59,235 bases of DNA from Nevskia sp. (GTDB taxonomy: Bacteria > Pseudomonadota > Gammaproteobacteria > Nevskiales > Nevskiaceae): positions 1 to 59,235 of the forward strand of contig JARLJS010000256.1 of NCBI GenBank assembly GCA_031291075.1, read 5' to 3'. The notes beneath the pieces are model-generated. The model saw only the letters and a program-made list of their open reading frames with translations, ran no database searches and was not told where the DNA came from. Shown here piece after piece: positions 45,186 through 51,587 of this stretch. The position numbers and the translations under genes are program-made. Within the stretch, counting starts at the first letter, position 1. Every line of letters starts with the position of its first letter.

Positions 45186-46187
45186 TCAGGCGCCGAGACT
45201 CAGCACGATCTTGCCGGCGTGCTGGCCGCTCTCCATGTAGGCATGGGCCGCGGCCGCCTGGTCGAAGGCGAACACCTTGTCCACCACCGGCCGGATCCGC
45301 CTCGCCTCCAGCAACGGCCAGACCTCGTGGCGTAGCGCCGTCCCGATGCGCGCCTTGTACGCGGCCGGCCGCGGACGCAGCATGGTGCCGCTGACGGAAG
45401 CGTTCTTCGCCATCAGCCGCAGCGCGTCCAGCTTCATCGCCGAACCACCCTGGGCGGCGATGATGACGATGTGGCCGCCCGGTGCCAGCAGCTCCAGATT
45501 GCGGCCCAGGTAGTCGCCGGCCACCATGTCCAGCACCACGTCCACCCCGCTGCCGATATGCCCCGCCAGGGCGGAGGCGAAATCCCCGCCGCGGTAGTTC
45601 ACCGCCCGCACGGCGCCGAGCGTCTCGCACAAGCGGCAACGCTCGTCCGAGCCGGCCGTGGCGAACACCTGGGCGCCGAGGGCGTTGGCGAGCTGGATCG
45701 CCGCCACGCCGATGCCGCTGGCGCCGCCGTGCACCAACAGGCTCCGCCCGGCCTCCAGCCGCGCCAGGTCGAAGATGTTGCTCCACACCGTGAAGTACGC
45801 CTCCGGCAGGGAGGCCGCCTCTTCCAGGGTCAGGCCCGCCGGCACCGGCAACACCTGCCCCGCCGCCACCACGCAGTACTCCGCGTAGCCGCCGCCAGCC
45901 AGCAGGGCGCACACCGGATCGCCCACGGCAAACCGCGTAACCCCCGGCCCCAGCGCCGCGACCCGCCCCGCCACCTCCAGCCCCGGCCAGTCCGGCGCCC
46001 CCGGCGGAGGCGGGTACACGCCGCGCCGCTGCAGCAGGTCGGCCCGGTTCAAGCCGGCCGCCGCCACCCGGATCAACACCTCCCCCTCCGCCGGGCGCGG
46101 CGTCGCGCGCGCCGCCACTCCCAGCACCTCCGGACCACCCGGTTTGGACGCCTCGATCACCCGCATTTCCGTCGGCAGGTCGTTCAT
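45186..46187 (-). CDS. Zinc-free NAD(P)H:quinone oxidoreductase (medium-chain reductase, PIG3-like)
   Basis: A 333-aa medium-chain dehydrogenase/reductase of the quinone oxidoreductase type. VAAAGLNRADLLQRRGVYPP and LEVAGRV mark the N-terminal domain, SLLVHGGASGIGVAAIQLA the Rossmann fold, and no zinc ligands are present. The pattern matches the TIGR02824/PIG3 branch. It reduces quinones or enones with NADPH. It is convergent with the small exported protein and is the last ordinary gene before the A/T-rich region. Confidence 0.88.
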   Translation of the reverse strand: MNDLPTEMRVIEASKPGGPEVLGVAARATPRPAEGEVLIRVAAAGLNRADLLQRRGVYPPPPGAPDWPGLEVAGRVAALGPGVTRFAVGDPVCALLAGGGYAEYCVVAAGQVLPVPAGLTLEEAASLPEAYFTVWSNIFDLARLEAGRSLLVHGGASGIGVAAIQLANALGAQVFATAGSDERCRLCETLGAVRAVNYRGGDFASALAGHIGSGVDVVLDMVAGDYLGRNLELLAPGGHIVIIAAQGGSAMKLDALRLMAKNASVSGTMLRPRPAAYKARIGTALRHEVWPLLEARRIRPVVDKVFAFDQAAAAHAYMESGQHAGKIVLSLGA

Positions 46188-46741
46188 GGAACTGACATCT
46201 CCTTTCGAATCGAACCGTAAACAGGGTCCCACGCCATCCTGCCAAACTTGAACTTTACCCGCGCAAGCCTCATCCTTGCCGCCGCTTGAAGCCCAGCGTG
46301 GCGGCAAGGGGTTCCAAACGGCGCAACGCCGTTTATCGGGTCCGACGCACCTCACATCGACACCCCGGGCTGCTTCCGGTATATATTCCCACCTGAAAAT
46401 TAAAGAAAAGTCCGGGTAGCGCAGCGGTTCTGCTACGGACTTGGTTGTTTCGCAGGCTCTCTCCGCGATTGGGGATTTTCGCGGAATCCTCGCAAAGGCT
46501 CAGCGGCGTAAGGCCGCAAGACGTAGTCGTCCAGCGCGGCAAGACGTTAGAACGTGAAAATTAAAGGGCAATCCCGCTCGGGAACAAAATTTGCGCTCGT
46601 TTTTTCATACTGTAGCCGGCCGTCATAATTGAGTTACATGTTAGAATGGTAAGTTTTGTCTACTGTTTCGATTGAACATTCGGTCATAACATTGGTCTGC
46701 CCAGCTCAAGGGCCCCCACCCAACCAAATGAGTAAACCGCC
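46188..46741. other. 554-bp non-coding region before the peptide gene
   Basis: No protein gene is supported; open frames here only shadow RNA-like structure. It contains the structured, direct-repeat-flanked segment at 46394-46605 and an A/T-rich leader (46606-46741) that must hold the promoter of the 47-aa peptide. Possible promoter boxes are present but none has both elements at good spacing. The change from GC-rich to A/T-rich sequence begins here. Confidence 0.5.
46394..46605 (+). ncRNA. Candidate structured RNA flanked by 12-bp direct repeats
   Basis: The 12-mer TGAAAATTAAAG occurs at 46394-46405 and again at 46555-46566. Between them are several stems: GTAG-C-GCAG with CTGC-TAC, CCGCGA with TCGCGG, GCGGC with GCCGC (loop GTAAG), GACG with CGTC, and ACGTT with AACGT. 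A run of six T follows at 46600-46605. An alternative fold GGATT/AATCC with a 7-base loop looks like a tRNA T-arm. The piece CGCAAAGGCT recalls the 3' half of c-di-GMP-I riboswitches, but other conserved parts are lacking. It may be a cis-regulatory leader, a small RNA or a small mobile element; the strand is assigned from the T-run. Confidence 0.4.
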
Positions 46742-46885
46742 ATGTCTCTCGAAAACACCGAAGTGGAAGTGCTGGAAATCTGCGATCTGGAGTACGACGT
46801 TGCTGGCGTAGGCTCGGTCGAGTCATCTGCCGCGGAAGAAAATCAAGCCGCTTTTGGAATTCTTCGTCGCATGTTCGCGGGCTAA
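46742..46885 (+). CDS. Putative RiPP-type precursor peptide, 47 aa
   Basis: Absent from a long-ORF view. The ATG at 46742 opens a 47-residue frame ending TAA at 46885. It starts MSLENTEVEVLEICDLEYDV, continues with a Gly/Ser hinge (AGVGSVESS) and ends EENQAAFGILRRMFAG. The first half is strongly acidic with hydrophobic spacing (EVEVLEICDLEYD), as in leader peptides that bind modification enzymes; the end carries the basic LRR and an aromatic residue. One cysteine (Cys14) only. There is no signal peptide and no clear GG cleavage site. A strong terminator lies 59 bases downstream, then two cupin-HEAT genes. Precursor function is inferred from size, composition and this layout. The ribosome site is weak. 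Confidence 0.6.
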   Translation: MSLENTEVEVLEICDLEYDVAGVGSVESSAAEENQAAFGILRRMFAG

Positions 46886-46944
46886 AGCGCGCGTGCATTG
46901 TGCCCAGCCCGGACCTTTAGAAAGATTTTCGCCTTCAGCTACGG

Positions 46945-46980
46945 ACGGAACTCGGCAAACGGGTTCCGTTCTTTATTTAT
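46945..46980 (+). terminator. Strong intrinsic terminator between peptide and cupin-HEAT genes
   Basis: Arms ACGGAACTCG (46945-46954) and CGGGTTCCGT (46960-46969) pair over ten positions (one G-T) around the loop GCAAA, followed by TCTTTATTTAT. It would end most transcripts of the peptide gene and let a fraction read through into the two enzymes, the usual way to keep precursor above enzyme levels. Confidence 0.85.
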
Positions 46981-47143
46981 AGGGTCGTGCCTTCCAAAAT
47001 GTGTTCTAGCGAAGCACTGGCGTGTCGAAACCTTTGGTGTTGGCCGCAATAAATAGTTGGACGAAGTCGGTGATTTGACCGCAAACTGTAAATTGACCGA
47101 TGCTGCGCAACGGACTGACGGCCTGATCTCGCATCCTGCGGAA

Positions 47144-47980
47144 ATGGACTCTGACTCTGCTGAATCGCCACTTGCCCGCTTCGTCGAACAAGTCGATCGC
47201 AACTTACGCCTAGGCGAGCCGGAGCCGTTCTTTAATTTGGAGGAGGAATTCCGCCGCCTTGTGCATAGCGGATTTCTGGTTCCCTATTTAAATGTCCAGA
47301 TCGAAGCACTGACGCGCGATCCAGGCCACCTGGGGGATTGGCGTCAGAACCAACTGGTGGTTCATCGTGGACGTGGCTATGCCTTGACGGTCTGGCTGTT
47401 CGACAAGCCGCGCCAGCACATCCATACCAGTTCGTTTTACGGCATGTTTGCACCGGTCGGCAAGGACAGTCTGTGCTACGACATCTACAAACTGCCCCCA
47501 CACTATCGCAACGACGTATTCGACCCCGGTGTTAAGCTTGAACCTGCGGGGTCTGGAATCACCGCTCCGGGCGGCATCCTGCTGCTGCAATCGGACGAAT
47601 ATGCCTACGACTTCAAATTCGAACGTCCGTTAGCGGTGCTCAAGTTCACGACCTCATCGTTTCATTCGCTCGAGTGGCTGTTCAACAAGGACAACCTGCA
47701 CGCCTGGCAGGCCAACGATAGCGAGCTCAAGTGGACACAACTGAGGGTTGCCTCTTACATCCTCGGACGGCTGGCCCACCAGTCATCGGTGGAACCGCTG
47801 GAACAACTCGCCACACACCCCCACCATGCGGTGCGTTGGGCAGCAATTCAAAGCCTCGGCCGCCTCAGCCGCACTGCCGCGCTTGCACAGCTTGAAAACG
47901 CATTGGACGATCCGCATCCTCATGTCCGCCGTGCCGCCGGCAAGACCTTGCAGCAGATCCGGCAAAAGCCGCACGCTTGA
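47144..47980 (+). CDS. Cupin-like protein with C-terminal HEAT repeats (A)
   Basis: About 278 aa from the ATG at 47144; the frame is open upstream to a TTG at 47057, so the start is uncertain. Residues ~60-185 have cupin character: GYALTVWLFDKPRQHIHTSS (His92-x-His94), YGMFAPVGKDSLCYDIYKL, then APGGILLLQSDEYAYDF and the strand LAVLKFTTSSFHSLEWL. The second cupin histidine seems lost (Tyr153/Tyr155 in its place). Residues ~215-273 form HEAT-like repeats: LEQLATHPHHAVRWAAIQSL and LENALDDPHPHVRRAAGKTL. It is homologous to the next gene, 6 bases downstream. Cupin oxygenases are known RiPP hydroxylases; the HEAT part may grip the peptide. Activity of this copy is doubtful and it may be a partner subunit. 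Confidence 0.65.
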   Translation: MDSDSAESPLARFVEQVDRNLRLGEPEPFFNLEEEFRRLVHSGFLVPYLNVQIEALTRDPGHLGDWRQNQLVVHRGRGYALTVWLFDKPRQHIHTSSFYGMFAPVGKDSLCYDIYKLPPHYRNDVFDPGVKLEPAGSGITAPGGILLLQSDEYAYDFKFERPLAVLKFTTSSFHSLEWLFNKDNLHAWQANDSELKWTQLRVASYILGRLAHQSSVEPLEQLATHPHHAVRWAAIQSLGRLSRTAALAQLENALDDPHPHVRRAAGKTLQQIRQKPHA

Positions 47981-47986
47981 AGAATT

Positions 47987-48874
47987 ATGGCCCTTACAAT
48001 TCCCTGTAACACCTCCTGGGTCATCAACCTCGCGGAGTTCATCGACTACGTCAAAACCAAAGTGGACCTGAGCGACGAGGACAGCATCGTCGCCGCCGCG
48101 CCGATGTTCCGCAGCCTGGCCAACGATCGGGAACTGGTGATTCGCAAACTGAATCAACTGGTCAAGGACGAATTCAGGAGCCAACCCAACCCCTCCTCGC
48201 AGGCGATATTTCTGGGCGGGGGCCAGGATTTCTTCGTGCGCGCGAACATCTGGCCTTCCAATGCGGACATTGCCGGCGGCCGCTTGTACCAGGACAAGTT
48301 CTCATATCATCTGGCCCACGATCACAATTACACGTTCATGACTGTGGGCTATCACGGTCCGGGGTACATTACCGAAATCTACGAATACGACCGTGACCGG
48401 ATTCAGGGCCATGTTGGCGAACGGGTGGAGTTGCGCTTCCTAGAGCGCCAGCAATTCATGCCCGGCATGGTGATGTTGTACCGGGCCGGGAAGGACGTAC
48501 ACGCCCAGTTTCCGCCCGAAGACCTGAGCGTTACACTGAATTTCATGATCTCCTCGCCGGAGGAGAGGCTGCGGGAGCAGCATTTCTTCGACCTGCAAAA
48601 CGGGACCCTGCTCGACTCTCCGCCAGGAGGTGAAGACTCCGGACGACTGTCATTGCTGAAACTGGCCGGCCTCGTCGGCAACGGCGACACACAAGAACTA
48701 CTCCATGATATTTCACGCAAGCATCCCAGCAAGAGAAGCCGGCTTGCGGCCTTCGACTCGTTGACGCAGCTAAATCCAACGCGGGCCGTGCCGATCTGGG
48801 AGTCCGCCGCTGAAGACCGGGAACCGATGGTGAAGGAGGTCGCTCTCAACAAGCTCCGCGCCCTGGCCGGCTGA
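47987..48874 (+). CDS. Cupin-like protein with C-terminal HEAT repeats (B)
   Basis: A 295-aa protein related to the gene before it. The cupin part (~70-190) keeps a plausible metal site: HLAHDHNYTFMTVGYHGPGY (His111-x-His113), and MPGMVMLYRAGKDVHAQFPP (His172), which would be a three-histidine triad like that of cysteine dioxygenase; Glu130 in ITEIYEY is an alternative ligand. The strand SVTLNFMISS closes the barrel. Residues ~218-293 form HEAT-like helices (LLKLAGLVGNGDTQELLHDI, RLAAFDSLTQLNPTRAVPIW). It probably carries the catalytic activity of the pair. Reaction and substrate are unknown; the 47-aa peptide upstream is the obvious candidate. Confidence 0.7.
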   Translation: MALTIPCNTSWVINLAEFIDYVKTKVDLSDEDSIVAAAPMFRSLANDRELVIRKLNQLVKDEFRSQPNPSSQAIFLGGGQDFFVRANIWPSNADIAGGRLYQDKFSYHLAHDHNYTFMTVGYHGPGYITEIYEYDRDRIQGHVGERVELRFLERQQFMPGMVMLYRAGKDVHAQFPPEDLSVTLNFMISSPEERLREQHFFDLQNGTLLDSPPGGEDSGRLSLLKLAGLVGNGDTQELLHDISRKHPSKRSRLAAFDSLTQLNPTRAVPIWESAAEDREPMVKEVALNKLRALAG

Positions 48875-48939
48875 GCCGGTTCGGCACGGAAAGCGCGGTC
48901 GAATTTATCAGGGAGTCCGGAACACTCGACGTTCGCTGC

Positions 48940-51033
48940 TCAGCCTGATACTACCAACCGCCCCAATTCGTACGCTTCAGTCCAGCGCATGAACTCAGCT
49001 GCAGGCAGAGCTGGGGAGAATAGGAAACCCTGCTGCACGCGACAGCCCTGCTTGAGCAGACGCCGCATCTGCAACGGCGTCTCCACGCCCTCCGCAATGA
49101 CGTCCATGTCTAGGCTCCTGGCGAGCGCCAGCATCGCCGAAATGATGGCCTCAGCCTGCCGCGAACCACCGATCTCGGCAACGAACTGACGGTCGATCTT
49201 GATCTTGTCGATCGGCAGTCGTTGCAGGTAGCTGAACGAGGAATACCCCGTACCGAAGTCATCCATACCTAGCCGGTAACCGAACTTCTTGATCTCCTCC
49301 AGCGCCCTGCGGGTATTTTCCGAGCTGTCGAACAACACGCTTTCGGTGAGTTCCAGATCGATCATCTGGGCCGCATCCGCATCTTCTCTACGCAATGCTT
49401 CCAGCGGTTCGAGAATCTTGCAGTCCTGCACTTGCCGCGCGGATACGTTGACGGAAACGCGGAACTGATGCCCCTGTGCGCGCCACTGCCTGAGCTGGGC
49501 GTGCGCAATGCGCAGACAGCGCTCGCCGAGGGCGTTGATCAAGCCCTCGCTTTCGGCCACCTGGATGAATTCGCCTGGCAATAGCAACCCCCGCTCCGGG
49601 TGCCGCCAACGGACCAGGGCCTCCGCGCCACTGACTTGGCGGCTTTCGACATCGACCATGGGCTGGTAGAACACCTCGAACTCGTTCTGTTCCAGCCCAC
49701 GCTGGATTTCCCCTGCCAGCGCCAGCTGCCGGCGCAGCATGCCGGTGAGCTGGCCATCGGCAAAGCGCGCATTGTTGCGGCCACTGCGCTTTGCGGCGTG
49801 CCCTGCGGCCTCCGCGCTATTGATCAGGCTCTCCGAGGTCTTGCCGTCGCCGGGACTGACGGCGATGCCGATCGACACCGACATATGCAGCAAATGACTG
49901 CCGAATCGATGCGGTTCCGCCAGGCCGCGCAACACGGTTTCGGCGATCTGGCGCAGCCGCAGCTCGGTGGCGCCGCCCGCTACCGCGTCGTCAACCAGCG
50001 CTATGAACTTGTCTCCCCCATAGCGGAACAGTTCGGACCCCACCGGCAGGAAGCGCTGCAAGCGGGTCGCCGCCTCGCACAAGTAAGCATCGCCCGCCTT
50101 GTGACCCAGGCGGTCGTTGACCGAACGGAAGTTGTCCAGATCGAAATAGTACAGAGCCAGCGGCTCTTCGGGCGGATGCGGCGGCGCCAACGCGATTCGC
50201 AGGCTTTCCTCCAACTGCGCGCGGTTGCCGAGGCCGGTCAGCGGATCCTGGTAGGCAAGTCTGCGCAGCTTCTCCGCACCATCGCGGAACTGACGCAGCG
50301 CCAGTGCAACTTGGCCGAACTCGTCGCCGCTGATCGGCGGTAGGTCGAGTTCGAGCTGTCCCACGTTGACTTGACGGATCGCTTCGGTAGTGATGCGCAG
50401 AGGCCGGATGATCGAACGCACCACTAGCAGCACCAACGCGATGCCAATGATTTCAGCCAAGAAAATCATAGCGACGGCGATCCGGATCGCCAGCGATGCG
50501 CGTTCGCGCGCTTCCTGCTGTATACGGTCCGCCCGGTCGCGTTCGCGCCTAGTGGCAGCCCGTACAGTTTCCTCGATCGTATTGACGCGCTTTTGCAGTT
50601 CCGCCACCTGCGCTTGGTCGGTCTTACCGGCCACAAGATTTCTGGCTGCCTGCTCCGAAATTTGCGGCAATTCGCGCTGAGCCACTTCGATGATGCCAGC
50701 ACTCTCAGGATCGAAGCTGCGCAGTCGCGCAAGCTCCACCCAAACGTCGTTGTGTGACTGTTCTTCCAACTGGCGTGCTTTGGCTTCGAGCTCCGGATTT
50801 TTCTGGATGATTGCAATGTTTACATTGCTGCCGTGACGCGCGTCGACAGTGACGGCCTCCAACACCCGCTGGATGATCCCGAACCTACGGTATTGCTCCG
50901 CCTGTGCCTCCTGCTCCTCCTGATTACGCTCAATCAGATACCCCAACAGCAAGCTCGAACTGCCAAAGATAGCCAGCAATCCCAGGCACAGGGCCAGCAA
51001 CCTGAAGCGCACACTGAATATCGGCCTGTACAT
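48940..51033 (-). CDS. EAL phosphodiesterase with degenerate GGDEF domain and membrane sensor
   Basis: A 697-aa protein. Two membrane helices (VRFRLLALCLGLLAIFGSSS, then IRIAVAMIFLAEIIGIALVL) enclose a helical periplasmic segment; HAMP (RPLRITTEAIRQVNVGQLEL), GGDEF and EAL domains follow. The cyclase signature reads GGDKF, so synthesis is unlikely and it may bind GTP. The EAL domain keeps EALVRWRHP, NVSARQ, ELTESVL, DDFGTGYSS and KIDRQF, all needed for c-di-GMP hydrolysis. It is convergent with the cupin-HEAT pair, 65 bases apart. Codon use is less GC-biased than the rest of the window. Confidence 0.9.
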   Translation of the reverse strand: MYRPIFSVRFRLLALCLGLLAIFGSSSLLLGYLIERNQEEQEAQAEQYRRFGIIQRVLEAVTVDARHGSNVNIAIIQKNPELEAKARQLEEQSHNDVWVELARLRSFDPESAGIIEVAQRELPQISEQAARNLVAGKTDQAQVAELQKRVNTIEETVRAATRRERDRADRIQQEARERASLAIRIAVAMIFLAEIIGIALVLLVVRSIIRPLRITTEAIRQVNVGQLELDLPPISGDEFGQVALALRQFRDGAEKLRRLAYQDPLTGLGNRAQLEESLRIALAPPHPPEEPLALYYFDLDNFRSVNDRLGHKAGDAYLCEAATRLQRFLPVGSELFRYGGDKFIALVDDAVAGGATELRLRQIAETVLRGLAEPHRFGSHLLHMSVSIGIAVSPGDGKTSESLINSAEAAGHAAKRSGRNNARFADGQLTGMLRRQLALAGEIQRGLEQNEFEVFYQPMVDVESRQVSGAEALVRWRHPERGLLLPGEFIQVAESEGLINALGERCLRIAHAQLRQWRAQGHQFRVSVNVSARQVQDCKILEPLEALRREDADAAQMIDLELTESVLFDSSENTRRALEEIKKFGYRLGMDDFGTGYSSFSYLQRLPIDKIKIDRQFVAEIGGSRQAEAIISAMLALARSLDMDVIAEGVETPLQMRRLLKQGCRVQQGFLFSPALPAAEFMRWTEAYELGRLVVSG

Positions 51034-51158
51034 TCCCTTACTTCCGCCCCCCGGAATCGCGGAAATTTCCTTCCCCGTTCAGGAGCATACCGGATGTTAT
51101 GCGTAAGAACAGCGACAGTGCGCTCTGGCACAGTCGTGCCCGGCGCAATGCCAACAAG

Positions 51159-51587
51159 CTATGTGCGGGAGCGGCCGGCAAGCACGGCCTCCGCGTAGAC
51201 GCGCAAGGGATTGCCAACCGGCGCACGCTCCACCAGGACCTGTTCCAGCGGCCGCCGGCCCTGCAGGTAGAGCGGCAGCCACACGCGTCCGCCGTTGCGG
51301 CGCCCGACCACCAGGTGCGGCAGTCCGAGGATGCGAACACGGTTGGCCGCGGTGATCTGCGACCAGCGCACGCGGCTGCCGCGGAAAACGGTCACGCCGT
51401 CCTCGCCGACCGCGACGGTGAACAGGCTGAACAACACCGCTAGGGCCAGGACCAGCTCGAACGCCAGCACGGCTTCGAGCATCTGCCGCGGCCAGGCCAG
51501 CCACATGGCCAGGCCGAACCAAAGAACGACCAGGCCCACCGGCGGCGAACGCCAGTGGATGCGGAAAACCTCTTCGCCCGGCGTCAT
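51159..51587 (-). CDS. Membrane protein with PH-like C-terminal part
   Basis: A 142-aa protein. Two hydrophobic helices (VGLVVLWFGLAMWLAWP, then AVLAFELVLALAVLFSLF) are followed by short strands resembling a bacterial PH domain: VAVGEDGVTVFRGSRVRWSQ, LPHLVVGRRNGGRVWLPLYL. The start at 51587 (MTPGEEVFRIHW) is preferred; 51605 is possible. Function unknown. Confidence 0.6.
   Translation of the reverse strand: MTPGEEVFRIHWRSPPVGLVVLWFGLAMWLAWPRQMLEAVLAFELVLALAVLFSLFTVAVGEDGVTVFRGSRVRWSQITAANRVRILGLPHLVVGRRNGGRVWLPLYLQGRRPLEQVLVERAPVGNPLRVYAEAVLAGRSRT

Follow-up and report, generated by a model that had tools for sequence, protein, structure and literature searches.

A gene for a 47-residue peptide and two adjacent genes for homologous proteins, here called P1 and P2, together probably form a RiPP-like module of a kind not described before, in which the peptide would be the substrate of a P1–P2 complex and P2 would oxidise it. 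The trio lies on the forward strand of the window, that is, the whole stretch of 59,235 nucleotides of Nevskia sp. DNA analysed here. Its recurrence in many bacteria suggests that small peptides are chemically modified in a way not yet described. The original prediction knew of no described class with such a pair, and we likewise found no description of a peptide–cupin–HEAT module in the open-licence PMC literature, though absence there is no proof. If P2 does oxidise the peptide, RiPP biology gains an enzyme family and a precursor family, both new. Current family models miss the module: NCBIfam has none for P2 or the peptides scanned, and Pfam sees the HEAT part alone in the window's P1 and P2.

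Is the short frame a gene? It is open from 46742 to 46885 and encodes MSLENTEVEVLEICDLEYDVAGVGSVESSAAEENQAAFGILRRMFAG, with an N-terminal conserved segment, EICDLEYDVAGVGSVE, and a variable tail, AAFGILRRMFAG. Among relatives the N-terminal motif LEYDVxxxGxxE is conserved and the C-terminal tail varies; the codon-position mismatch (0.375/0.256/0.571) reveals purifying selection, a check that the original prediction had itself proposed. We conclude that the 47-residue frame is a real gene. Across the peptides an L-x-E-x-x-V-type motif is constant and the tails differ in length and composition, a pattern of conservation that suggests leader and core roles for the two parts. Strongly hydrophobic tails are common outside Nevskia, and a share of the peptides there may therefore be small membrane proteins. 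In the window peptide a single cysteine lies within the conserved part, and Pfam finds nothing in this peptide; no NCBIfam model matches any of the seven peptides scanned. The terminator that had been predicted behind the peptide gene is a 12-pair stem at 46943–46971 on the forward strand, with the T-rich tail TTTATTTATA and a free energy of −20.4 kcal/mol, and it separates the peptide gene from P1. Of 55 sequences examined (window included), 16 have a terminator-like site behind the peptide, against 2–9 in five mononucleotide-shuffled control sets. The promoter scan returned a single site, at chance level, and no known RNA element was detected within 45800–51300 at E ≤ 0.5.

P1 (47144–47980; 278 residues from the ATG at 47144) matches Pfam HEAT_2 at E 8e-14, and P2 (47987–48874; 295 residues) matches it at E 0.0038, short of the curated cut-off. 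The two match each other by BLASTP at E 8e-4 and, profile against profile, with a probability of 99.3 and E 3.7e-20 over 270 columns. Neither barrel of the window's pair is detected by Pfam; the AlphaFold models of the two have pLDDT values of 93.1 and 95.7, and Foldseek backs the cupin fold. On this comparison of sequences and models P1 and P2 are homologous cupin–HEAT proteins, as had been proposed. Beyond its barrel, P2 has extra N-terminal helices and a C-terminal HEAT domain; in P1, too, the HEAT repeats are C-terminal.

If both barrels are cupins, do both carry a metal site? The original prediction took both proteins for oxidising enzymes. P2 retains the triad H111, H113 and H172 (HxH…H), but P1 has lost the metal-ligand histidines, and its conservation is strongest in the HEAT part, which includes an invariant Arg-Trp. 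Residue conservation is taken from alignment A1, built without the HDHN pattern; conservation in alignment A2 is biased because its loci were collected via that pattern. The histidines of P2 align with those of thiol dioxygenases in a weak profile match (E 0.048). In Foldseek both barrels come closest to 3-His thiol dioxygenases, not to 2-oxoglutarate hydroxylases, and the earlier analogy with hydroxylase-type cupins needs correcting; the models of both proteins also match PnpCD. Pfam CDO_I matches neither protein of the window at E ≤ 1, Pfam and NCBIfam reveal in them neither an RRE-like or other RiPP domain nor a known RiPP enzyme family, and NCBIfam offers no P2 model and, for P1, only generic HEAT matches below cut-off. 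Thus only P2 looks catalytic, with a plausible iron site of predicted 3-His cupin fold, and the barrel of P1 is without metal ligands. Cysteine dioxygenase carries an arginine that binds the substrate carboxylate, to which R85 of P2 was initially likened; a by-eye comparison puts R85 one strand after the arginine-bearing strand, and the assignment was dropped.

The genes had been placed in a patch of lower GC content. GC does fall from about 70% to 56–63% across 46–51 kb of the window, but the patch also spans a convergent GGDEF/EAL gene that had been left out. This gene (48940–51033, reverse strand) encodes a membrane protein with an N-terminal sensor region, a HAMP domain, a degenerate GGDEF (GGDKF) and an intact EAL, the status of both motifs being judged on an alignment. 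According to Pfam, a zinc-binding dehydrogenase gene lies upstream of the module, and past the GGDEF/EAL gene come a matchless frame and then restriction-endonuclease-like, thioesterase and glutathione-transferase genes, the first of these 3 kb downstream. Dedicated proteases and exporters are frequent in RiPP systems, not universal; as had been noted, no transporter or protease family occurs among the seven flanking frames of the window (Pfam).

How far does the GGDEF/EAL gene belong to the module? It follows P2, convergently, in every locus of the Nevskia family fetched far enough. P2 is encoded in 21 of the 61 family genomes and the c-di-GMP protein in all 21 of these, with two weaker matches besides. 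The peptide, at E ≤ 4.5e-9, occurs in 13 of the 61 (the window's own genome included), always in a P2-bearing genome and at the P1–P2 locus, and in none of the 40 without P2 (Fisher 3e-8, a value that ignores relatedness and rests on a profile built from these same relatives). P2 is therefore tracked better by the c-di-GMP gene (21/21) than by the peptide (13/21). We conclude that in this family the downstream c-di-GMP gene is part of the conserved unit; the peptide and protein pair originally predicted, with its leader-like conservation, is well supported as a module, but was drawn without that gene. The remaining eight P2-bearing genomes belong to the window's genus and have P1, P2 and the GGDEF/EAL gene but no recognisable peptide: searched across whole genomes, the family profile has no match at E ≤ 0.05, and the general profile nothing better than E 4.7 in the eight loci. 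Candidate hidden peptides there (L063, L065–L071) were rejected, since the short frames that five or more of these loci share resemble, by eye, pieces of larger or antisense frames.

A motif- and alignment-based scan of 84,980 species genomes found 412 places (not genomes) that encode P2, of which 80 were kept as named loci; a contig scan with a single protein as query gave no match, and the alignment query succeeded. A P1-profile match (E < 1e-5) ends at the start of P2 in 76 of the 80, and in 35 of the 39 loci not used to build the profile. On both strands of the 80 loci the iterated peptide profile gives 69 matches at E < 0.5, 68 of them on the plus strand and 59 at 800–1500 bp before P2, in 54 loci. 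At least one match occurs in 59 of the 80 loci, so that the short upstream frame, whose absence elsewhere would have told against the original prediction, is mostly conserved; the other 21 have none at that threshold. The profile was seeded with 15 peptides from 13 of the 59 matching loci; with these excluded, 46 loci hold 50 matches, 49 on the plus strand and 42 at 800–1500 bp before P2. The peptide is recognisable across Alpha-, Beta- and Gammaproteobacteria; outside Proteobacteria matches are weak (best E 0.06–2.7) or absent. Judged by sequence, then, the peptide is claimed for Proteobacteria only, and elsewhere there are P1–P2 pairs with less certain peptides.

The arrangement varies. Peptides stand in tandem in Lysobacter, Niveispirillum and Alteromonas, and in three Sphingomonas loci (L107, L110, L115) the whole module is duplicated, with a second P1, a second P2 and further peptides. 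These loci had seemed to hold two P1 copies sharing one P2, until a direct search showed that all three also have a second P2, lying behind the second P1; the idea of P1 as a peptide-specific subunit was dropped for that reason. In 3 of the 80 named loci (L081, L083, L085) the peptide is found some 3.5 kb past the start of P2; in Xanthomonas (L098) it is at +1099, and in Dyella (L116) the opposite strand encodes it. Exporters adjoin the module in a few other lineages, among them a C39-peptidase ABC exporter in Mucilaginibacter. In 24 of 81 loci the flanks that were fetched contain ABC genes, a count of the frames of one cluster (ten Pfam-scanned members are all ABC ATPases) that may be no more than background, and we dropped a general enrichment of exporters; an ABC gene follows P2 immediately in only five loci.

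What, then, might the module do? It has two features expected of a RiPP system, a precursor gene linked to candidate modifying proteins and a peptide with a conserved N-terminal and a variable C-terminal part. The peptide would be the substrate, with an N-terminal recognition segment of approximately L-x-x-L-[DE]-x-x-V-x-x-x-G-[SA] ahead of its variable tail. P1 and P2 derive from a common cupin–HEAT ancestor and probably form one complex. Since P1 has lost its metal site and is best conserved in its HEAT part, including the Arg-Trp, it most likely grips the peptide, and P2 most likely oxidises it with Fe(II) and O2, a chemistry suggested by its predicted fold and residues. Half of the 72 peptides lack cysteine (36 without, 36 with), which excludes simple thiol oxidation as the general reaction. 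In the few lineages with adjoining exporters the product is probably secreted. In the Nevskia family, co-occurrence suggests that the modified peptide may be a ligand or regulator of the membrane c-di-GMP phosphodiesterase-like protein; if so, the family would allow a test of whether a modified peptide feeds straight into second-messenger signalling. A bolder version, which we hold to be doubtful as a whole, is a new class of ribosomal peptides modified by a heteromeric 3-His cupin–HEAT oxidase that needs O2 but not 2-oxoglutarate. The class would be common in Proteobacteria and, to go by P1–P2 pairs with less certain peptides, would extend to Bacteroidota, Acidobacteriota, Actinobacteria and others; in Nevskia and its relatives it would serve as a dedicated signal that the membrane c-di-GMP phosphodiesterase reads.

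Might the peptide not be a substrate at all? It could be a small regulatory or membrane peptide that tethers or inhibits an oxygen- or metal-sensing P1–P2 complex, which in the Nevskia family controls the c-di-GMP protein. Most tails outside Nevskia are indeed hydrophobic (median best 12-residue hydropathy 2.46, n = 58), exporters mostly do not adjoin, and the c-di-GMP protein accompanies P2 more faithfully than the peptide does. On the other hand, tails of the Nevskia family are less membrane-like (median 0.78, n = 14), tandem diverging copies and variable tails are typical of substrates, and the exporters that do adjoin, as in Mucilaginibacter, suggest secretion in some lineages; we regard this explanation as rather unlikely, and continue to prefer a peptide that P2 oxidises.

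It is more improbable still that P2 acts as a dioxygenase on small-molecule thiols or carboxylates, with the peptide a conserved upstream leader frame that regulates P1–P2 expression. Small-molecule thiol dioxygenases are the best fold matches, and the peptide is usually upstream, with a terminator behind it in the window; but that terminator-like site recurs in only 16/55, the peptide sequence itself can be traced across Alpha-, Beta- and Gammaproteobacteria, and the downstream, opposite-strand and tandem peptides do not suit attenuation. Nor does a toxin–antitoxin or defence module seem at all probable. A small gene beside larger ones, in a low-GC patch with a restriction-endonuclease-like gene nearby, might invite the idea, yet the peptide stands apart behind its own terminator, PADLOC recognises neither P2 nor the GGDEF/EAL protein and gives P1 HEAT-type matches alone, P2 occurs in just 2 of 72,556 plasmid records, and none of 50,697 phage records matches L024, a diverged relative of P2.

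To which known systems does the module that we propose come closest? Thiol dioxygenases comprise cysteine, 3-mercaptopropionate and mercaptosuccinate dioxygenases and plant cysteine oxidase/ADO. P1 and P2 resemble them in predicted fold, and P2 alone in its HxH…H triad; the pair differs in lacking CDO_I membership, in its N-terminal helices, HEAT domain and degenerate partner copy, and in its link to peptides of which half are without cysteine. Hydroquinone 1,2-dioxygenase, PnpCD, likewise consists of two related cupin subunits, one of them iron-bearing, but cleaves the ring of a small molecule and is not known to have the HEAT domain or the peptide found here. PbsQ, as described in PMC12257519, is a cupin-like hydroxylase of a biphenomycin-like RiPP pathway, related to a JmjC-domain protein, with MNIO, arginase and radical SAM enzymes as its partners. 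P2 is similarly a cupin-fold candidate enzyme for a RiPP-like precursor, but is closest in fold to 3-His thiol dioxygenases, and no MNIO, arginase or radical SAM gene adjoins it in the window. In the crocagin pathway, as described in PMC10070186, iron-dependent oxidation of a peptide with an Ile-Tyr-Trp core falls to a separate oxygenase, CgnC, and the peptide-binding pair CgnB/CgnE has an aminopeptidase-like fold. The pair here is, by predicted fold, cupin–HEAT instead, and Tyr-Trp is absent from the last 45 residues of every peptide match at E < 1. What the present locus does share with crocagin (PMC10070186) is, in the reading proposed here, iron-dependent oxidation of the peptide and, besides, a short precursor gene accompanied by a homologous pair, of which one copy carries a metal site and the other is degenerate there.

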